A stretch of DNA of 37,063 nt, taken from Flavobacteriales bacterium (GTDB lineage Bacteria; Bacteroidota; Bacteroidia; NORP154). Of this stretch, positions 5,693 through 16,309 are shown piece by piece. Within the stretch, counting starts at the first letter, position 1. The number at the start of each line of letters is the position of its first letter. Made by a program: the position numbers and the translations under genes. The stretch lies in NCBI GenBank assembly GCA_012965955.1, contig DTRK01000093.1, positions 1-37,063 of the forward strand, in the 5' to 3' direction. A model generated the notes under the pieces. That model saw nothing but the letters and a program-made list of their open reading frames with translations. It was not told where the DNA came from and ran no database searches.

Positions 5693-6272
5693 CGCTTATT
5701 CGTTCTAATGCATGCAAATCTTCGATCGTATTGACATTTCTAAACAAATATGGGGAATAATAGGGCATATTCTCATCTATATCGATGAATTTTACCTTAT
5801 TGTATTGTATAAAGCCATGTAAGCTTAAATCACTGGAAGTAGCCGCCTTTTCAATCAGCAGTAGGCAGTCCCTGTGATAAATTGCACAAAGCGGTTCAAG
5901 CTGATCTCCATGTCGCGGGACCACTATCAGATCTTCTTCTGAGCATTGATCTAAGAGAAATTGGAGAAAGTCTGCGTTGAGCATAGGTAGGTCGCATGCC
6001 AATACAAGGTTATGGGCAGTATTGGAGTGAGTGAGACCTGAATGAATTCCCCCTATCGGCCCCTTTTCCTTGAGGATGTCATGATGAACGGGATAACCAA
6101 ATTGCTCATAACCCTCTTTATTTGCTATGATGATGATATCATCGGCCAGTTCTGAGGCAAGCTCAAGGCTCCTCTGTATCATAGCCTTTCCCCTGAATTG
6201 GATGAGCCCTTTGTCCATTCCCATGCGAGAGCTGAATCCACCGGCAAGAACAATAGCTGACACCATTATCAC
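5682..6272 (-). CDS. mobA: Molybdenum cofactor guanylyltransferase MobA
   Basis: AIVLAGGFSSRMGMDKGLIQF nucleotidyltransferase motif; LACDLPML. Confidence 0.92.
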   Translation of the reverse strand: MIMVSAIVLAGGFSSRMGMDKGLIQFRGKAMIQRSLELASELADDIIIIANKEGYEQFGYPVHHDILKEKGPIGGIHSGLTHSNTAHNLVLACDLPMLNADFLQFLLDQCSEEDLIVVPRHGDQLEPLCAIYHRDCLLLIEKAATSSDLSLHGFIQYNKVKFIDIDENMPYYSPYLFRNVNTIEDLHALERISDED

Positions 6273-7459
6273 TGTATCAAATGAAATTCAACCATATCTC
6301 CCGCTTCATATACCCTTGCTTCAGGAGGCAATACAACAAGCCCCTCAGCAGCAGTCATGGAGCTCAACATATGTGACCCTTGAACATTTAGCAATGTTGC
6401 CTTGCCATCCTGTACAGCTGCTGCCAGGAAGTGTGTACGCTTGTCATCCTTCTTGTTAAAGGAGACAGCTAGCGGTAACCATAGCTGGCTGAGGATAGGA
6501 TTGTCGCTGCCCATGGCTTGCATTATGTATGCTCTCACATATTCAAAGAAACAAATCAATACGGCACGTGGGTTCCCAGGGAGCCCGAATGCAGTACAAC
6601 GCCCTTTAGTTGTGAAGAGCAGGGGCTTGCCGGGCTTCTGGCTGATCTTATGGAAGATCGTTTCAAAACCATTGGCCTCCAAAGCCGGCACGGTAAAGTC
6701 GTAGTCGCCTACTGAAACACCTCCTGTGATCAGCAACAGATCACATTGGCTCTCCCTCAGGGCGATAAGGTCAGTTAAGGCCTTCAAATGGTCCGTGCAT
6801 ATTTCGTATTCTGCTTTGATCCCTAATTTTGAGAGACAGGACACCAACATGTGTCCGTTAGATTCAAATATTTTTCCCTTTCCCAGGTCATCTTTGTTCT
6901 CTGCGAACTCATTGCCTGTGCAAACTATATGAACTTTTGGATACCTCGCTACCCTTACCGTGTCTATCCCTAATGAGGCCAGGAATCCTATCGCCGCACT
7001 GTTGAGAATACTCCCTTTAGCTAAAGCGACCTTACCCTTTTGAAGTTGCTCTCCAGCGACACGGACATTGGCGCCTGCTTTTAATTCCGGATTGGTTAAC
7101 GTGATTTGATCTCCATCCACCGCTGTCTGCTCCTGCATTATTACCGTATCGCAGGAAGCGGGCAATTTAGCGCCCGTAAATATTCGAGCGCATTCTCCCG
7201 GCTCGATCTTAATATCCGAATCACCCCCAGCCTGAATTTCCCCACGCAGTTTTAGCACTGATGTCCGTGACATGCTGCTGTGGCTAAAGCAGTACCCGTC
7301 CATAGCCGATTGGTCAAAAATGGGGTGGTCAATAGGTGATCTGACTTCAGCGGCAAGCACTCGATTAACTGCTCCGTCTACGTCAATATCCTCTGATGAG
7401 AGAAGCTTTGCGTGCTTCAATATGAGTGCTCCTGCTTCTTCCCTGGAAATCATGGGCAA
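6269..7459 (-). CDS. moeA: Molybdopterin molybdenumtransferase MoeA
   Basis: MoeA motifs (SPIDHPIFDQSAMDGYCF, IFTGAKLPASCDTVIMQEQT, TGGVSVGDYDF, QKPGKPLLF, FGLPGNPRAV). Confidence 0.94.
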   Translation of the reverse strand: MPMISREEAGALILKHAKLLSSEDIDVDGAVNRVLAAEVRSPIDHPIFDQSAMDGYCFSHSSMSRTSVLKLRGEIQAGGDSDIKIEPGECARIFTGAKLPASCDTVIMQEQTAVDGDQITLTNPELKAGANVRVAGEQLQKGKVALAKGSILNSAAIGFLASLGIDTVRVARYPKVHIVCTGNEFAENKDDLGKGKIFESNGHMLVSCLSKLGIKAEYEICTDHLKALTDLIALRESQCDLLLITGGVSVGDYDFTVPALEANGFETIFHKISQKPGKPLLFTTKGRCTAFGLPGNPRAVLICFFEYVRAYIMQAMGSDNPILSQLWLPLAVSFNKKDDKRTHFLAAAVQDGKATLLNVQGSHMLSSMTAAEGLVVLPPEARVYEAGDMVEFHLIQ

Positions 7460-7562
7460 AAGGTAGTAAAATCTTGTGTAGAAAAACTGGTTCTAGCCAT
7501 TCTCTTCCTCATGATACAGATGCTGGAATGGGATATGTAACCGTTATCAACAGAGGCTGCTA

Positions 7563-8327
7563 TTAGCTGCCAAATTTCATCTCTTCATAGATCTTGTAAT
7601 CAAATTCTTTGGTCACGCGTTGGGCCATTGGGGTCATGAGTTCAAGGCCTTCAGCGCGCGGGTTTTTGATATCTGCTGAAATGGGGTAGGCGTTCATGAG
7701 GTCTGAAGGGTAAGGGTTTAGGAGGCCTGTTACTTCCTCTACCGGCGTTTCGTTATCCAGCCAGGTATTCTCGTCTTCTTTATTCAGAATAACCGGAGTG
7801 CGATGATGGGGGAGTTTTTGCAGCAGCGTATTGGCCGTCGTGGTAATGATGGCAAAGGAATTCAGCAGCTCACCGGTTGTTTTATCTGCCCAGCTGTCCC
7901 AGATACCTGCGAAAGCAAATGGGCGCCTGTTCTTGAGATATACCACATACGGTTTACTCAGTTTTTCCTTGGTCGTACCTTCAATAAAGCAATCGGCTAC
8001 TACCAGGCATCTTTGAGAGCGAATGGCTTTCCTGAATGCCGGTTTTTCGGTAATGGCCCTGCTGCCTTTATAGTTTGGGTCGTTGTCTTTGTTCTTGTCT
8101 CCCTCGGAGCGTGCATTGAACCAGTACGTCGGCTTATCTGCCCAGAAAGGTGTAAACCCAAAGCTGAACAGCTGTAACTCCTTGGGCTTATCATTCGTAA
8201 TCACCGCCGCCTTTTGCCCCGGAGAGATGTTGTAGCTTTGAAATTGCTCCATATCTCCAGGGGCCTGTACATCGAAGATCTTTTCGATGGCGTCAATTTT
8301 TTGGATGCTTACGTATCGGCCACACAT
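7563..8327 (-). CDS. SOS response-associated peptidase / abasic-site DNA-protein crosslink protein (SRAP, YedK/HMCES family)
   Basis: MCGRY N-terminus (Cys2), YNISPGQ, NARSE, CLVVADCFIEG, FAGIWDSW, LPHHRTPVIL. Confidence 0.93.
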   Translation of the reverse strand: MCGRYVSIQKIDAIEKIFDVQAPGDMEQFQSYNISPGQKAAVITNDKPKELQLFSFGFTPFWADKPTYWFNARSEGDKNKDNDPNYKGSRAITEKPAFRKAIRSQRCLVVADCFIEGTTKEKLSKPYVVYLKNRRPFAFAGIWDSWADKTTGELLNSFAIITTTANTLLQKLPHHRTPVILNKEDENTWLDNETPVEEVTGLLNPYPSDLMNAYPISADIKNPRAEGLELMTPMAQRVTKEFDYKIYEEMKFGS

Positions 8328-8372
8328 ATGCTTGTTCTATTCCGTCATTGGTAAGTTACACATTTTCATAAT

Positions 8373-9086
8373 CTAATGCTTCATGGATTTCCGATTCGCT
8401 CTTTCCTCCTGAAAGTCAATCTCACTGAGTTTATCATCCCTTGCCTTCATCTGCTGCAAGGACATTCCCAGAGGTACAAGCAGGTCCTTGTCATTGGAAG
8501 TTGACGCCAATATATCGGTACTCACTTTAAAGAAGTCGAACCAGTGTCTTCCAGCTTTTGCAGCGAAGTTCATGATGGTAAAGGTGTGCTCTGATTGCAG
8601 CCATATATGCAAGCGTTCGTGGGTAAAAACAAGGGGCATGTCATCCATCAAGCCTGCCAGCACATCTGCAGAAGCAGTTTTGAGCATAGCGAATCGGTAT
8701 TCATTACCTTCCTGAACATAGATGCCACCTATGCAAAATAGCCTTGGGCGTATCAAGCGTATCAGGTAGGCTTCCTTTTTGTGCTCTGTAAAAAAGCAGT
8801 TCGCCAGAATAGCGCAGCGCTGTGTTTGCATTAATACATTAAATGGCGGGGTGCGCAGAATCTTGTCGGTAGAGATCACATTGACCTGGTTCTTTTCTCG
8901 TGTCATGGACTCAATGCCCCACGTAGCCATGACCAGCCTTGACTCCACTTTGTCCTTGATCAATATAGGTAAATGCATACCCGGCCGGGCTTGAAAGATG
9001 GCGTCGTACTTAAACGACTCATGAATCTGGCAGAGATCCATAATATGTTGTGGTTTGGATGCTATGGTGTAGATTTCAATCATCAT
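8373..9086 (-). CDS. Degenerate SRAP-fold paralog lacking catalytic residues
   Basis: Manual alignment to the neighbouring SRAP: FQARPGMHLPILIKDK.../YNISPGQKAAVITNDK; PPFNVLMQTQRCAILANCFFTE/PAFRKAIRSQRCLVVADCFIEG; RLFCIGGIYVQ/RPFAFAGIWDSW; RFAMLKTASADVLAGLMDDMPLVFTHERLHIWL/SFAIITTTANTLLQKLPHHRTPVILNKEDENTWL. No MC N-terminus. ATGA overlap with dnaE2. Confidence 0.75.
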   Translation of the reverse strand: MMIEIYTIASKPQHIMDLCQIHESFKYDAIFQARPGMHLPILIKDKVESRLVMATWGIESMTREKNQVNVISTDKILRTPPFNVLMQTQRCAILANCFFTEHKKEAYLIRLIRPRLFCIGGIYVQEGNEYRFAMLKTASADVLAGLMDDMPLVFTHERLHIWLQSEHTFTIMNFAAKAGRHWFDFFKVSTDILASTSNDKDLLVPLGMSLQQMKARDDKLSEIDFQEERANRKSMKH

Positions 9087-12000
9087 CGTTCCAATCTTAA
9101 CATGGGCTTATTTGTCTGGTAATAGGTGTCTGTGGATCTTAGCCTTGTGGATTTATTGTCCATACTCACCGTATTCAATCTGTGCAGTTCCATCACTTCA
9201 ATGCTGATAAAGCCAAACTCATTTACCACCTTGCCCTTGATGACATAGCATCCAGGTCCGCGGAAGGGATAGCGCCGTGCTACATCAGGAAATTGTACTG
9301 AATCCACCCATTCTCCGCGCTGGTCCACAAATACGCCGAAACTCATGTAGTCTTTTTTGCTGGTGCTGGTGCCCTTGACATGAATGAGGTACCCTACAAT
9401 GGTCACGACCTTATCCACATGAAAGGGAATGTCCCGTGCAGAAAAGGGGATGTCGGGCAGGTTCTCCACCAGGGTAAAAGGTGAGGTGTTTAGGGGGAAG
9501 TTCAGGATTTCTATTTCGTCAAAAGCCGCTTCCAGCCGGTGATAATGGAGTGGGGGGAGTTTAAACGCTTTAGGTGCTGCATTGAAAAGTGTTTTTGCTG
9601 GAACCGTTTTTTTGACATTTCCCATCATGAAATGGGCATCCCAGAGCAACTCTTTCTTTCCCTTGTCGGTAAACCGAAAGGCGCCAATTCGGATCAGGAG
9701 TTTGAGCTGCTCCAACGAGATGGCCACGCGGTTGACGAAGTCTGCTAAATTGCTAAATGGCCCGTCTTCATGCCGCGCGATGAGTAGCGATCGTATGGAG
9801 TCCACGTTGAGGCCACGCATCAGCCCAAATCCCAAATGGATCACCTTACCGCGGATATTGGTCTTTCCATCACTCATGTTCACGCAGGGTGCTTCAATCT
9901 GCGCCCCGTGCATGCGGGCTTCGTGTACGTACAATTCCGGACGGTAAAATCCTCCGCCATTGTTGATGGTTGCCACGAGGTATTCCAGGGGGTAATGTGC
10001 CTTGAGGTAGAGCGCCTGATAGCTCTCCACAGCATAGGAGGCTGAGTGTCCCTTCGAAAAGGCATAATTGGCGAAGCTCTCTATCTGCTTCCACACCTCA
10101 TTGATAACGGCCCTAGGGTAGTTCTTTGCATCGCAATTGGCAAAGAATTTATCCTTAACCTTGTCGAATTCGCTGCGCTGCTTATACTTCCACGACATGC
10201 CCCGTCGCAGTACATCTGCCTCAGCGAGGGTGAGTCCGGCGAAGTAGTGTGCCACTTTGATCACGTCCTCCTGGTACACCATCACACCATAAGTTTCTGC
10301 CATGATATCGTAGAGTTCAGGCAACTCCTGTCGTGCGGCGGCGCGCCTTTCGGGGTGTCTGTACCGCAGAATATACTCCCGCATCATTCCGCTTTTGGAG
10401 ACTCCCGGCCTGATGATGGAGCTGGCAGCGACCAGTCTCAGGTAGTCGTCGGCCTGTAGCTTTTTGAGGAGCATGCGCATGGCAGGAGATTCCACATAGA
10501 AGCAGCCGATGGCCAGTCCGTTGCGCAATAGTTCTTTGACTTTTTTGTCTTTTTTGAATTTCTGAAAGTCGTAGATATCGACCGTGTCGCCGGTATTGTC
10601 TTCAATGAGTTTGATGGAGTCTTTGATCTTGCTAAGTCCTCTTTGTCCGAGCACATCAAATTTGGAGAGGCCAATATCCTCGGCTTCTATCATGCTGAAA
10701 AATACGGTGGGAAAACCTTTGGGAGGCATCATCGTGGCGCCATAGGTGCTGATGGTTTCATCAGATATAATTATGCCGCTGGAATGCACACTCAGGTGGC
10801 TGGGAAAACCGTTGATCAGTTTACTGTATTTTACCACGAGGCGTGATATGTCATCCATGCCCGCAAAGCTCTTTGCAGCCTGTATCCTGTCGATCTCCCT
10901 GGCCGGAAGGCCGAACACTTTTCCCAGCTCCCGCAGCATGGAGCGGTATTGAAAGGTGCTATAGGTCCCCACCAGCGCTGTATGGTTCCAGCCGTGGGTA
11001 TCGAAGAGGTATTTGGTGACATCATTTCTATCGCGGGAGGAGAAGTCGATGTCAAAGTCGGGCGGACTACTCCTGTAGGGATTGATGAAGCGCTCGAAGT
11101 ACAGGTCGAGTTCCAGTGGATCTACATCGGTGATGCGCAGCAAATAGGCCACCATGCTGTTGGCGCCACTGCCCCGGCCTACATAGCAATAATCCTTATG
11201 CCGTGCATAGCTCACCATGTCCCAATTGATGAGGAAGTAGGAGCAGAAATCCAGCTGCAGGATTACGGATAGCTCTTTTTCCACCCTGTCGAGCACCGAT
11301 TTCGAGGGATGGTTTCCAAAGCGGTATTGCAGGCCTTTGGTACATTCCTGTTTGATCAATGCAATGTCTTCGGCAGGAGAGCTGGTGAAGGTCTTTTTGT
11401 TTTTGGCTGTTTTATATTCGAATTCTATACTGCATTCTTCCAGGATGTTCTTCGTGTTTTGGATGAGGGTGGGGTAGTCTTTGAAGATTTCCTCCAACTC
11501 CTGGTTTGTGTGCATGATTTCATCCGGCCGGGCTTCCTCAAGGCGGTCGAGTTTGCTGAGGAGTACATTATTGTCGATAGAGCGCAGGAGGCGGTGTGCG
11601 TTGAAGTCTCTGCTATTGCGAAAGGTGACAGGCTGTAGTATTGCCACCTTGCCCTGTGTATTGCTCCAGGGTGAGAAGCGAAATTTATTGAGCTCTGAAC
11701 AGCGAATTCCTATGAACTCGTTGGGTCGCAGGGTGGAGTAGGGTATTGTGCTGAAGGGGTAGATGATGAAAGCATTCTCAAGGCTCGGCGCCCTGGGCGG
11801 GACAGAGGCTTTTGCGTGGAGGTAATAGCTCAGGCACTCATTGAGCTCACGGAAACCTTGGTTGTTCTTCGCAATTCCTACGAATTGTTGTTTGGCGCCT
11901 TTTCGAAAATCTATACCTACTACCGGCTTTATCCCTTGCTGCGGACACAAGCGGATGAAGTCGAGGCAGGCCGAAGTGCTGTTGATATCTGTAAGCGCAA

Positions 12001-12097
12001 TAGTTTCCAGCCCTTTGGAACTGGCTTCATTTAATAGATTTTCGATGGAGAGCGTCCCGTATTTGTAACTGTAATATGTATGGCAATTGAGGCTCAC
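9083..12097 (-). CDS. dnaE2: DNA polymerase III alpha subunit, error-prone DnaE2/ImuC-like
   Basis: DnaE motifs (VGRGSGANSMVAYLLRITDVDPLELDLYFERFINP, PDFDIDF, HLSVHSSGIIIS, YQEDVIKVAHYFAGLTLAEADVLRRGMSWK) plus a DnaE2-type NNGGGFYRPELYVHEARMHGAQI region. GTG start. Confidence 0.9.
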   Translation of the reverse strand: MSLNCHTYYSYKYGTLSIENLLNEASSKGLETIALTDINSTSACLDFIRLCPQQGIKPVVGIDFRKGAKQQFVGIAKNNQGFRELNECLSYYLHAKASVPPRAPSLENAFIIYPFSTIPYSTLRPNEFIGIRCSELNKFRFSPWSNTQGKVAILQPVTFRNSRDFNAHRLLRSIDNNVLLSKLDRLEEARPDEIMHTNQELEEIFKDYPTLIQNTKNILEECSIEFEYKTAKNKKTFTSSPAEDIALIKQECTKGLQYRFGNHPSKSVLDRVEKELSVILQLDFCSYFLINWDMVSYARHKDYCYVGRGSGANSMVAYLLRITDVDPLELDLYFERFINPYRSSPPDFDIDFSSRDRNDVTKYLFDTHGWNHTALVGTYSTFQYRSMLRELGKVFGLPAREIDRIQAAKSFAGMDDISRLVVKYSKLINGFPSHLSVHSSGIIISDETISTYGATMMPPKGFPTVFFSMIEAEDIGLSKFDVLGQRGLSKIKDSIKLIEDNTGDTVDIYDFQKFKKDKKVKELLRNGLAIGCFYVESPAMRMLLKKLQADDYLRLVAASSIIRPGVSKSGMMREYILRYRHPERRAAARQELPELYDIMAETYGVMVYQEDVIKVAHYFAGLTLAEADVLRRGMSWKYKQRSEFDKVKDKFFANCDAKNYPRAVINEVWKQIESFANYAFSKGHSASYAVESYQALYLKAHYPLEYLVATINNGGGFYRPELYVHEARMHGAQIEAPCVNMSDGKTNIRGKVIHLGFGLMRGLNVDSIRSLLIARHEDGPFSNLADFVNRVAISLEQLKLLIRIGAFRFTDKGKKELLWDAHFMMGNVKKTVPAKTLFNAAPKAFKLPPLHYHRLEAAFDEIEILNFPLNTSPFTLVENLPDIPFSARDIPFHVDKVVTIVGYLIHVKGTSTSKKDYMSFGVFVDQRGEWVDSVQFPDVARRYPFRGPGCYVIKGKVVNEFGFISIEVMELHRLNTVSMDNKSTRLRSTDTYYQTNKPMLRLER

Positions 12098-12199
12098 TTC
12101 GTTTGCGTAATTCTGCTCCCGTTGGTCGCGTCATTTGGCGCTTTGCGCCGTTATTCACTCGCTGTCGCTCGTGCAATTCGCTCACTTCGTTCGCGTTAT
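12093..12199. repeat. Intergenic repeat-rich block with a duplicated ~28-bp motif, a perfect GGCGC-TTT-GCGCC hairpin and a mirror repeat
   Basis: ggctcacttcgtttgcgtaatt near 12093 is matched by cgctcacttcgttcgcgttatt near 12179; ggcgctttgcgcc at 12137-12149; ctcgctgtcgctc in between is a text mirror repeat. Confidence 0.7.
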
Positions 12200-12565
12200 T
12201 TAATTGCTTTTTGTTTTGACTTTAATAGAAGTTATATAGTTGTTAAGCTTGACTCCAAGGTCTTTTAATGACTGTTCGAATGTTGTCAAGCCTTCATCTG
12301 ATAGGAGGTTTCTTTGATTTGCTTTTCTGAGCCAGGTTGTTGTTTCGAATAATGATCCTCTGGCATAGTAGTAAAACACCCTCGAGTCCCTGTAGTGATA
12401 TCTTCCAAATCCCTCAGATATATTGGCTGCAATAGAATCTGCAGACCTGACCAATTGCTTTCCAATAGTATTTTTTGAGAAGTCATCCCAGTTATGAGTG
12501 AGTTTCCAGATTTCCGCCCCAATTTCCATTGATATCTTATATACTCTTAAATCATCTAGTTCCAT
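12200..12565 (-). CDS. Four helix bundle protein (23S rRNA intervening-sequence / bAvd-like family)
   Basis: DDLRVYKISMEIGAEIWKLTHNW...KNTIGKQLVRSADSIAANISEGFGRYHYRDSRVFYYYARGSLFETTTWLRKA matches the IVS-protein family signature. Confidence 0.9.
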   Translation of the reverse strand: MELDDLRVYKISMEIGAEIWKLTHNWDDFSKNTIGKQLVRSADSIAANISEGFGRYHYRDSRVFYYYARGSLFETTTWLRKANQRNLLSDEGLTTFEQSLKDLGVKLNNYITSIKVKTKSN

Positions 12566-12598
12566 ATCACCACTGAATCACCACTGAATCACCACTGA
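12566..12598. repeat. 3 x 11-bp perfect tandem repeat (atcaccactga) directly upstream of the four-helix-bundle start codon
   Basis: atcaccactga|atcaccactga|atcaccactga read directly; the ATG (minus strand) is at 12565. Confidence 0.95.
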
Positions 12599-12614
12599 AT
12601 AACATCCTGCCCAT

Positions 12615-13832
12615 TCAAGCACGTCTATGTGCTGGAATTACAGGAGGTAATCCATTAAAAGGATTGCTCATCTGTCCGATTCCCCGTGTATCCATTGTCA
12701 CTACCCGCCGTACAGCATTCTGCCCGAAACGGTTTCTAATCTTGTCCATAGCCTGATAGAGGTTGATTATCTCCTCTGTATCCTCAAATAAGTTGATTTG
12801 GTAAGCACCTTCTACCAAATGGCTGTACCGTACACCTACCAATCGTACCAACACCCTGCGCTGATAGAGCTGATCAAATAATGACATCACCTTTTCAATA
12901 AGGGTATGATCACAGGAAGTGTATGGAACCCGCACCTGCCTGCTGCGCGTATCAAAATCAGAATAGCGCACCGTTACCGTCACACAGGAAGTGAGCTTCT
13001 TCCCATTTCGCAGGTAAAAGGCCAGCTTCTCCGCCATGGTGGAGAGGATATCCTTCAACTTGCGGACATCAATAGTGTCGCGCTCAAAGGTGATCGATGA
13101 GGAGATAGACTTTCTTTCATTATAGGGAATGACAGGTGTATGGTCTAGACCTTGTGCCTTTTTCCAGATGGAGATTCCATTCTTTCCAAGCAGGCGGTCC
13201 ATGAGTTCAACAGGCATTTCCTGTATGGTGTGTATGTGCTCAATGCCCATTCCCTGCAGTGTTTTATAGGTCTGGTCGCCCACCATGGGGATCTTTTTGA
13301 TAGACAGGGGTGCGAGAAACGGCTTCTCTTCTCCCTTGCACACCTCTATATAGTTATTGGGTTTTGCCTCGTTGGTACTCACCTTCGCTACTGTCTTATT
13401 GGTGGAGAGTCCAAAAGAAATGGGAAGCCCTGTCTCCCTTATGATAGTGCTGCGTAACTCCTTGGCCCATTTATAACAACCATGAAAGCGATCCATGCCA
13501 CTTATGTCTATATAAAACTCGTCTATGGAAGACTTCTCATATAAAGGCGATTGCTCCTTAATGATTTCTGTTACCGCGTCGGAATACTTACTGTAGATGC
13601 CGGCGTTACCTTTTATCACAATGGCGTCAGGACAGAGCTGCTGGGCCATACGCATGGGCATGGCGGAGTGGATGCCATAGGCACGGGCCTCATAACTGCA
13701 AGCTGCCACCACACCGCGACCACTTGTGCCTCCAACCAATACTGGTTTCCCATTCAAACTCGAGTCAAGCAAGCGCTCACAAGCAACGAAAAAGGCGTCG
13801 AGATCTATGTGTATAATTGATCGGCTTTGCAT
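12615..13832 (-). CDS. dinB: Y-family DNA polymerase (DinB/Pol IV-like) with UmuC-like clamp-binding motif
   Basis: RSIIHIDLDAFFVACE, SYEARAYGIHSAMPM, SSIDEFYIDISG, SFGLSTNKTVAKVSTNEAKPN; C-terminal QINLFED. Start reassigned from 13988 to the ATG at 13832 (MQSRSIIHIDLDAFF), since the extension overlaps the divergent gene. Confidence 0.92.
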   Translation of the reverse strand: MQSRSIIHIDLDAFFVACERLLDSSLNGKPVLVGGTSGRGVVAACSYEARAYGIHSAMPMRMAQQLCPDAIVIKGNAGIYSKYSDAVTEIIKEQSPLYEKSSIDEFYIDISGMDRFHGCYKWAKELRSTIIRETGLPISFGLSTNKTVAKVSTNEAKPNNYIEVCKGEEKPFLAPLSIKKIPMVGDQTYKTLQGMGIEHIHTIQEMPVELMDRLLGKNGISIWKKAQGLDHTPVIPYNERKSISSSITFERDTIDVRKLKDILSTMAEKLAFYLRNGKKLTSCVTVTVRYSDFDTRSRQVRVPYTSCDHTLIEKVMSLFDQLYQRRVLVRLVGVRYSHLVEGAYQINLFEDTEEIINLYQAMDKIRNRFGQNAVRRVVTMDTRGIGQMSNPFNGLPPVIPAHRRA

Positions 13833-13862
13833 CGCTTTAAAATTTTGTTTAAATATATTACG

Positions 13863-13875
13863 TTTTGTAACAAAA
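13863..13875. promoter_or_regulatory. Inverted repeat TTTTGT-A-ACAAAA in the divergent dinB/xre intergenic region (candidate operator)
   Basis: Perfect 6-bp arms read directly. Confidence 0.5.
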
Positions 13876-13887
13876 GAATACATATAT

Positions 13888-13906
13888 TTGTGATAAATAA
13901 TCACAA
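13888..13906. promoter_or_regulatory. Inverted repeat TTGTGAT-aaata-ATCACAA abutting the xre start codon (candidate operator)
   Basis: Perfect 7-bp arms with 5-nt spacer; last base is the A of the ATG at 13906. Confidence 0.6.
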
Positions 13907-14676
13907 TGAGTATATTTTCAGATAACATAAAACTTTTAAGGACAGAGAAATCCTTGACCCAACAACGGCTTGCAGACGATTTAATCATTACACGTGACCG
14001 TTTAGCGTCCTACGAAGCGGGTAGAAACGAGCCACCATTTGAGATCCTTAATAGGATATCGAGATATTTCCACAAGAGCATTGATGTGCTCATCAACGTC
14101 GAGCTAAATAAGGTGCCTTATGAGGATCTTGTGAATCTGGATAACAACAGGATTTTGATGCCTGTTGTGGTGGACAGTGAAGGCAACGACTTAATAGAGG
14201 TAGTACCTGTCAAGGCTTCAGCAGGCTATTTGAATGGTTATGCTGATCCAGAGTACATAGAGAGCTTGCAGCGCATGAAGCTGCCCTTTATGCCGGTAGG
14301 TAAGCACAGGGCATTTCCCATTACTGGGGATTCCATGCTGCCTGTCCAAAGCGGTTCTTATGTTGTGGGTCGTTTATTAGAGGGATTTCAGAACATTAAA
14401 GATGGAAGAACCTATATCTTGGTCACTGAGTCTGACGGTATTGTGTACAAACGCGTATATAATAAGGTACACGAAGATGGAAGTTTGCACCTGCATTCAG
14501 ATAATAAAGTGTATGATCCATATACGGTTAATGCACAGGAAGTATTAGAGATGTGGGAGTACGTTTGCCTGATCAATACCCAGGAGTACGCCGCAGAAGA
14601 CCTGAACCTCGATAGTGTAATGGGAATGCTCCGCGACCTCAAGGTAGAGTTGGCACAGGTGAAAGGCAATAAATAG
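13906..14676 (+). CDS. XRE-family regulator with S24 (LexA/cI-like) self-cleaving peptidase domain
   Basis: N-terminal HTH (LTQQRLADDLIITRDRLASYEAGRNEPPFEIL); C-terminal GDSMLP (catalytic Ser), VYKRVY (candidate Lys), and an Ala-Gly pair in VKASAGYLNGY suited to autocleavage. Confidence 0.9.
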   Translation: MSIFSDNIKLLRTEKSLTQQRLADDLIITRDRLASYEAGRNEPPFEILNRISRYFHKSIDVLINVELNKVPYEDLVNLDNNRILMPVVVDSEGNDLIEVVPVKASAGYLNGYADPEYIESLQRMKLPFMPVGKHRAFPITGDSMLPVQSGSYVVGRLLEGFQNIKDGRTYILVTESDGIVYKRVYNKVHEDGSLHLHSDNKVYDPYTVNAQEVLEMWEYVCLINTQEYAAEDLNLDSVMGMLRDLKVELAQVKGNK

Positions 14677-14842
14677 GATGTAAGATCGCTATCTGCCCGA
14701 GGATGTCGTACAGGCAGGCGCTGTAAGAAGTAAAACGTCTGGTAGTTAAGTTGCTTCCTGAGCGGAGGCGAACGACAATACTGCTTACATCTAAAATTCT
14801 TGGTCGTCCCAAACTTTTTCCCCACATTCGCATTCGCGGATA

Positions 14843-16309
14843 ATGAGCACTTTCGACATCATCGTAATAGGAGGAGGGCACAATGGCCTTACTGCGGCAA
14901 CTATGCTGGCAAAAAGGGGTAAGCGCGTTCTGCTGCTAGAAAAACAGGGGCAGCTTGGAGGTCTTGCAGCTGCTGGTATCTTGCATGATACGAGTTTAGT
15001 TCGGGCATCCATAGTGAAAGCACTTGGCCTGGAGAAGCATGGATTGGAACTCTTAGGTTCCAGGGTGCCAGCGGTGCTGCTTGGTAAAGAAGGCCAGGAA
15101 TTGCTAATTACTGGCAACCACAAGGAGACAGCAGAGCGCATAGCGGTGTTCTCTGAGAATGATGCAGCAGCGTATTTGAAACTACGCGCTTTTTTGGACA
15201 AGGTCACGCCCTTGCTAAGTGGCCTTATGAATGAAGTTCCACCCAATGTTAACAACCTTGGAATGAAGGAGGTTTGGAGTCTGGGAAAGAAGGCGTTGAG
15301 CCTGAAGATGCTCGGTAATGCAACGATGTTGGAGTTTCTAAGGATAGCGCCTATGTGCGTTGCTGATTATCTGAACGAGTGGTTTGAAACAGATTTCTTG
15401 AAAGCCGGCCTTGCTGCACCGGCACTATATGGCTCTTTCACGGGTCCATGGTCGGCGGGCAGTAATTTGAACTTTCTTCTTTATGAATGTCTGGCTGGAG
15501 AGGAGGTGCAGGGAGGAGCACTGGCCCTGATAGCTGCTCTTGAGAAAGCTGCGGGAAGCTACGGGGTGGAGGTCAGAACCAATTCAGAGGTTTCTGAGAT
15601 TGTAATTGAAAATGGAGCGGCCATAGGAGTTCGGGTGGACGGGAAGTTGCTCATCGCCAACACAATAATGAGCTCATGTTCTCCAAAACAAACGATGTTG
15701 GAATGGATCACACCTGCCGAGGTGAGCTTTGACACGGAGATGCAGTTGAACGTGCTCAGATCAAGGGGAACGACGGCTATCGTGAACATGACATTTGATC
15801 AGCCGGTGCGGTTCAAAACTGGTGAGAAGCAGGCTGGAGTGTATCGAACAGGGAACTCCTTTGATGAAATGGAGAAAGCATTTGATAATTCAAAATACCG
15901 GGAGTACTCAGTGCATCCATTGCTGGAATTTAGAGTGTCCGATGATAACAAGACACTGAATATTATGACCCATTATGCTCCGTTTGACCTGGAAACTGGC
16001 TGGAACGAGAAAGCGAAAGCTGGATTGCTAGAGAATGTTAGCAGGGAACTCTCTCTATATACAGATCAGCAGGCCAGGGTTCTGCACTCAGAAGTTATCT
16101 CTCCTAAAGACATGGAAGAGCGCTTTGGAATACCTGGAGGACATATATATCATGCTGAACATGCTATTGATCAGCTGATTACCCGTCCGTTCCCTTCATT
16201 TATGCAGTATAAAACTTCAATTCCGGGGCTTTACCAATGTGGTAGTGGAGCCCATCCCGGCGGCGGACTCACTTGCGCACCAGGCTATTTAGCTGCTTCT
16301 ACGCTGTAG
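14843..16309 (+). CDS. FAD-dependent oxidoreductase, phytoene dehydrogenase/PYROXD2-like
   Basis: N-terminal dinucleotide-binding motif DIIVIGGGHNGLTAATMLAKRGKRVLLLEKQGQLGG; C-terminal GLYQCGSGAHPGGGLTCAPGYLAA. Confidence 0.9.
   Translation: MSTFDIIVIGGGHNGLTAATMLAKRGKRVLLLEKQGQLGGLAAAGILHDTSLVRASIVKALGLEKHGLELLGSRVPAVLLGKEGQELLITGNHKETAERIAVFSENDAAAYLKLRAFLDKVTPLLSGLMNEVPPNVNNLGMKEVWSLGKKALSLKMLGNATMLEFLRIAPMCVADYLNEWFETDFLKAGLAAPALYGSFTGPWSAGSNLNFLLYECLAGEEVQGGALALIAALEKAAGSYGVEVRTNSEVSEIVIENGAAIGVRVDGKLLIANTIMSSCSPKQTMLEWITPAEVSFDTEMQLNVLRSRGTTAIVNMTFDQPVRFKTGEKQAGVYRTGNSFDEMEKAFDNSKYREYSVHPLLEFRVSDDNKTLNIMTHYAPFDLETGWNEKAKAGLLENVSRELSLYTDQQARVLHSEVISPKDMEERFGIPGGHIYHAEHAIDQLITRPFPSFMQYKTSIPGLYQCGSGAHPGGGLTCAPGYLAASTL

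Follow-up and report, generated by a model that had tools for sequence, protein, structure and literature searches.

Described SRAP and DnaE2 systems and the operon in the window

SRAP proteins are suicide capturers of abasic sites and oppose mutagenic bypass. In YedK, crosslinking depends mainly on Cys2 and Glu105; His160 serves in ring opening, and Asn75 matters little (PMC9436759). Aravind and co-workers (2013; PMC3765255) reported SRAP genes in SOS operons near dnaE2, dinB, and lexA, treated the triad residues as absolutely or nearly absolutely conserved, and proposed an autopeptidase switch. Two polymerase systems are also close to the locus studied here: the ImuA-ImuB-DnaE2 mutasome, with an accessory gene beside an SOS-type dnaE2, and the Bacteroidetes DnaE2B-PolY-RecA module, described without a SRAP subunit in a study that links SRAP-like proteins to UmuC-like polymerases and names no SRAP with DnaE2 (PMC12926913).

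We analyzed a 37,063-nt stretch of contig DTRK01000093.1 from a Flavobacteriales bacterium (the window). It shares with the SOS operons a SRAP gene near dnaE2, dinB, and lexA, and with the DnaE2B-PolY-RecA module the placement of PolY and dnaE2 in one operon, the presence of RecA, and the lack of a detected ImuA. Unlike that module, the operon also has a SRAP component, a paralog that we call the dead SRAP. The features are as follows.

7563..8327 (-), canonical SRAP starting MCGRY, with Cys2, Asn71, Glu116, and His174 intact (PF02586, 177.6 bits); a member of a separate SRAP clade
8373..9086 (-), dead SRAP paralog of 237 aa, or 236 aa if the start is the second ATG (9083)
8376..8459 (-), C-terminal extension of the dead SRAP (residues 209-236, numbered from the second ATG); contains a predicted helix, and its tail, F-x2-ER-x-NR-x3-K, is conserved
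9083..9086 (-), ATGA overlap of the dnaE2 stop and the first ATG of the dead SRAP, from ORF coordinates
9083..12097 (-), dnaE2, error-prone C-family polymerase of 1004 aa with PHP, DNA_pol3_alpha, finger, and HHH_6 domains
12200..12565 (-), gene for a 23S rRNA-intervening-sequence-type protein, between PolY and dnaE2 (PF05635, 94.5 bits)
12615..13832 (-), Y-family polymerase (PolY) with IMS and IMS_C domains; likely start MQSRS at 13832, from the protein and its homologs
13858..13870 (no strand), candidate LexA-type operator, a TTAC-GTTTT-GTAA dyad in the interval that separates the starts of PolY and S24, from the motif
13906..14676 (+), divergent HTH-S24 (Bacteroidetes LexA-like) autorepressor with HTH_3 and Peptidase_S24 domains

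The minus-strand genes are transcribed in the order Y-family polymerase, 23S rRNA-intervening-sequence-type gene, dnaE2, dead SRAP, and canonical SRAP. PolY retains the catalytic motifs DLDAFF and SIDEFY, which, together with the lack of a detected ImuA, distinguishes the operon from the ImuA-ImuB-DnaE2 mutasome. The genome (assembly 91.6% complete) encodes one RecA, and an ImuA model searched against it matched just that RecA, below the cut-off. Based on the phylum and the absence of ImuA, we assume that this DnaE2 belongs to subgroup DnaE2B. Genes of the 23S rRNA-intervening-sequence type lie near this operon elsewhere as well (L142, 10213-10566; L089, 6488-6850; L054, 5032-5385). An Rfam search of window positions 7000-15000 returned nothing.

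The sequence of the S24 regulator has the Ala-Gly, Ser (GDSML), and Lys (VYKR) positions. Patterns of the TTAC-N5-GTAA type occur three times in the window versus 0.41 expected, so that the dyad by itself is modest evidence of an operator. Bacteroidetes LexA-like repressors bind CTAA-N5-TTAG, and TTAC-AAATT-GTAA is a verified diverged LexA-like site in another species (PMC8565304). At the loci of three orthologs of the dead SRAP (G003, G006, and L057), CTAA-N5-TTAG is found in the PolY-S24 intergenic stretch, and in a fourth (G080) it occurs twice in the stretch before the S24 gene. The operon promoter in the window carries an operator-like dyad, a candidate LexA-type site that would place the genes under putative SOS control. 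A second palindrome, TTGTGATAAATAATCACAA, at 13888-13906, reaches the S24 start codon and is possibly a second operator.

The ATGA overlap with dnaE2 noted in the first-pass annotation of this sequence is present at 9083-9086 when the first ATG is taken as the start, and the dead SRAP of L057 has the same overlap with dnaE2 at 10000-10003. The orthologous proteins begin M-I-[ED]-I-Y, the closest ones reading MIDIY and the window protein MIEIY, which makes the second ATG (9083) a possible true start. In that case, the overlap would be TGATG instead of ATGA.

SRAP fold and catalytic residues

The ORF at 8373-9086 (-) matches PF02586 at 60.7 bits (E = 1.9e-16; cut-off, 27.1 bits). In a draw of 59 genomes, it and its G003 ortholog were the lowest-scoring SRAPs above the Pfam cut-off, and the two SRAPs of the window are 21% identical across 166 columns. 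A single-sequence phmmer search of the dead SRAP against the PDB was not significant (best E = 0.91), and a profile of it reached YedK at an E of 1.1e-4. With hhalign, the profile of the six dnaE2-linked orthologs matched a canonical-only profile of 58 SRAPs over residues 1-213 (Prob 99.7%, E = 7e-27). The core blocks WG, QRC, CF, and MP are retained, as in YedK and HMCES.

An AlphaFold model based on a 97-row alignment had a pLDDT of 91.5 and a pTM of 0.86, although it is not independent of homology, because the alignment contained canonical SRAPs; a model built from the six orthologs alone (pLDDT, 46) was discarded. All 21 Foldseek matches of the retained model to the PDB with E values of ≤0.001 were SRAP-family structures, the best being YedK 6kbz (E = 2e-13; TM, 0.75 to 0.79). 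Based on the family profile, the profile-profile match, and the predicted fold, the window protein is confirmed as a genuine SRAP homolog. This agrees with the first-pass annotation, which had named structure prediction with Foldseek and an HMM-HMM search as checks; both pointed to SRAP.

That annotation had also proposed, by manual alignment, that all four catalytic positions were lost. We compared these sites (Cys2, Asn75 of the NAR motif, Glu105, and His160 in YedK numbering) in MAFFT alignments of 73 and 97 SRAPs and in the hhalign profile-profile alignment, and found none of them in the window protein. Cys2 is replaced by Ile, Glu by Thr, and His by Met in all three alignments, exactly as first read for Glu and His. 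The Asn position is occupied by Val (MAFFT) or Ser (hhalign) and never by Asn; Asn68 sits 1 to 3 residues upstream, and 4/6 orthologs have an Asn 1 to 3 residues before this position. The Arg of the H-x-R motif has become Asp, and Arg4 and Arg77 are gone as well.

The losses are shared by the whole orthologous clade, which the first-pass annotation did not notice, any more than the replacement of these three Arg residues. Cys, Asn, Glu, His, and the H-x-R Arg are invariant in the 58 Cys2-bearing SRAPs of our set (58/58), whereas each of the six dnaE2-linked members lacks all five (0/6). There, Cys is replaced by I/L or absent, Asn by V/I/F/T, Glu by T/G/V/A, His by M/I/T/A, and the H-x-R Arg by D/E/V (acidic in 5/6); MAFFT and hhalign agree on all of these positions except that of Asn. 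Joint loss of the four catalytic residues in this pattern is well beyond chance. With both Cys and Glu lost, the dead SRAP would be expected neither to crosslink abasic sites nor to act as a C2A-type lyase, and the autopeptidase switch proposed for the family could not work in a protein that has no Cys, Glu, or His. The reading of a noncrosslinking SRAP-fold protein is backed by the sequence, the fold, and the persistence of the loss across six genomes.

Altered positions also bear on DNA binding. R4, R77, R162, and the Trp of the PxW loop are residues that we take to be DNA contacts in YedK or HMCES. In the dead clade, R4 is replaced by Ile or Leu, R77 by S/D/G/P/H, and R162 by D/E in five of the six proteins, and the PxW-loop Trp is missing. 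The loss of these residues makes it unlikely that DNA is bound in the classical cleft, and weakens the first-pass proposal of a single-stranded DNA or abasic-site binder. In the open literature, we found no paper on HMCES R98E/R212E mutants. Such a binder would recognize ssDNA-dsDNA junctions or abasic sites noncovalently and hand the lesion to DnaE2 without a long-lived crosslink in the way of synthesis. It would suit the retained (predicted) SRAP fold and the position beside dnaE2, and active-site mutants of YedK that are blocked with formaldehyde retain DNA binding (PMC9436759). Binding by another surface would be compatible with the basic pI (8.3 to 9.7) of 5/6 proteins; we regard this as the main rival to an accessory role, although an unlikely one.

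The dead SRAP also differs from YedK and HMCES in its C terminus. Residues after 213 fall outside the canonical profile match, the AlphaFold model places a helix at 209-234, and F224, E227, R228, N230, R231, and K235 are invariant in 6/6 orthologs. This predicted extra helix is the best candidate for a docking element.

Distribution and selective constraint

Five further orthologs share 78% (G006), 77% (G003), 53% (L039), about 40% (G080), and 36% (L057, from G642) identity with the window protein. In contrast to the SRAP family at large, the clade lies beside dnaE2 in every ortholog found, directly downstream in 6/6 genomes. The two genes overlap in the window and in L057 and are separated by 3 nt in L039, about 40 nt in G080, and about 220 nt in G006; in G003, about 630 nt lie between them, with an ORF6N-like gene inserted (named by inspection of the protein, not by profile).

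In a tree of 97 SRAPs, the dnaE2-linked dead SRAPs formed one clade (SH-aLRT, 100). The canonical SRAP of the window fell outside it, together with nine other canonical rows, and the tree rejects a recent tandem duplication of this neighbor. In the window, G003, and G006, the canonical and dead genes are tandem neighbors, which might suggest that the dead SRAP acts on the adjacent enzyme as a regulator or dominant-negative partner. We consider this very improbable, since at the L039, L057, and G080 loci the dead SRAP has no neighboring canonical SRAP (copies may exist elsewhere in these genomes). With a canonical SRAP adjacent in just 3/6 cases, the linkage of the dead SRAP is to dnaE2 and not to its paralog.

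The gene is rare among dnaE2 loci. We surveyed 57 such loci, and of the 53 showing the 3′ end of dnaE2, two had a dead SRAP. In a genome of the same genus (G002) with an 89%-identical dnaE2, ORF6N-like and unrelated genes lie beside dnaE2 and no dead SRAP is present there. An ORF6N-like gene thus occurs 3′ of dnaE2 both where the dead SRAP is kept (G003; L005, 858-1391) and where it is missing (G002; L222, 1463-1951). On the dnaE2 tree, carriers fall into two clades with noncarriers between them, so the dead SRAP was lost or transferred. This distribution rejects the idea that DnaE2 requires it. It also leaves little weight to the first-pass suggestion that the protein fills the role of ImuA: no ImuA was detected in the genome, yet most related PolY-dnaE2 operons, including one from the same genus, do without a dead SRAP. 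ImuA has a RecA-like fold, to which the predicted SRAP fold is unrelated. Plasmid records held one distant match to the dead SRAP, in Methylomonas, and phage records held none.

Patchy presence and absence from a same-genus relative could also reflect a decaying, functionless remnant of a SRAP duplication. The dead SRAPs of G006 and G003 have a dN/dS of 0.056, indicating purifying selection, and all six genomes have an intact reading frame, with identities as low as 36%. Between the window and G006, pN is 0.14 and synonymous change is saturated, as it is in nearly all comparisons other than G006-G003. The gene is under selective constraint in its clade, and the clade is separate from the adjacent canonical SRAP; decay is the least probable of the explanations considered here.

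Proposed role and other SRAPs lacking Cys2

Since a dead version has been kept by selection beside dnaE2 in several lineages, it is probably an accessory of a mutagenic repair machine and not an enzyme. Our main reading, to which we give a probability of about 0.5, is that the dead SRAP is a SRAP-fold pseudoenzyme and an optional structural accessory of the DnaE2-PolY-RecA polymerase complex. It would be encoded in a LexA-controlled PolY-dnaE2 operon, with translational coupling to dnaE2 supplying it together with the polymerase. It would bind the polymerase complex by protein contacts, through the conserved C-terminal helix and clade-specific residues, and not by abasic-site crosslinks, and may adjust how DnaE2 is recruited to lesions or how stable it is there. 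Such a role would resemble that of UmuD′ or ImuB-C, both small subunits, more than that of ImuA.

The first-pass suggestion of a polymerase accessory subunit is upheld as far as gene order goes (immediately 3′ of dnaE2 in all six genomes, with an overlap in two), and gene order alone is no proof of a complex. The rare and patchy occurrence of the dead SRAP argues against the accessory role, as does L057, where a broken PolY frame (5857-6186 and 6285-6977) accompanies intact dnaE2 and dead SRAP genes; the split may be an assembly error. On the accessory reading, coproduction of a dead SRAP and an error-prone polymerase points to a second, noncovalent role of the SRAP fold in translesion synthesis, and the dead and canonical SRAPs of one operon allow direct comparison of that role.

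Other SRAPs in the set have lost Cys2 as well. It is absent from 39 of the 97 SRAPs (the six dnaE2-linked proteins and 33 others), a share that is no frequency because part of the sampling was based on similarity to the dnaE2-linked clade. Starred branches of the tree force at least three label changes among these 33. Judged by these residues, Bacteroidota have lost SRAP catalysis on several occasions. With the complete active site gone repeatedly within a single phylum, it is unsafe to annotate PF02586 matches as SOS-response-associated peptidases. Our search of the open literature, with most subscription journals outside its scope, found no paper describing dead SRAPs.

The largest Cys2-less clade, with 28 rows, is confined to a single family-level group (f84), and Glu is often replaced by Lys and His by Asp; its Cys2-less SRAPs (L129, L130, and L132 to L138) begin MSDRF or MERY. 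Where neighbors were read, the locus mostly consists of SecG, a mechanosensitive channel, the dead SRAP, a CAAX protease, and a DEAD-box helicase, with no polymerase match nearby. By its gene content, this is a conserved locus unrelated to SOS, and dead SRAP folds therefore have uses outside the mutasome. Together with the patchiness of the dead SRAP relative to dnaE2, this would fit an autonomous regulator or adaptor acting with another partner (RecA, the sliding clamp, SSB, or a protease), for which dnaE2 is a coexpression slot only. The position by dnaE2 is kept in 6/6 genomes, despite the insertion in one, and we consider such a regulator quite unlikely, more so than the DNA binder.

Two smaller Cys2-less groups (L007, L028, and L098; L008 and L038) have lost most other catalytic residues as well and, on their sequences, represent at least one more independent lineage of loss. 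Long-branch attraction may explain why L008 and L038 group with the dnaE2-linked clade. A further reading, which we hold tentatively and at somewhat less than even odds, is that the dead SRAP beside dnaE2 was co-opted into a DnaE2-PolY-RecA mutasome as its dedicated subunit, giving a type of polymerase complex absent from the 2026 survey of DnaE2 associations, and is one of several independent conversions of SRAP to a nonenzyme in Bacteroidota.

At two other loci (L043, 10087-12153; L044, 10585-12686), a second Y-family polymerase (UmuC-like), preceded by a gene of 151 aa that is UmuD-like by position, lies downstream of dnaE2 together with a SRAP with an intact site (MCFYY). This arrangement resembles the UmuC-SRAP link named in PMC12926913.
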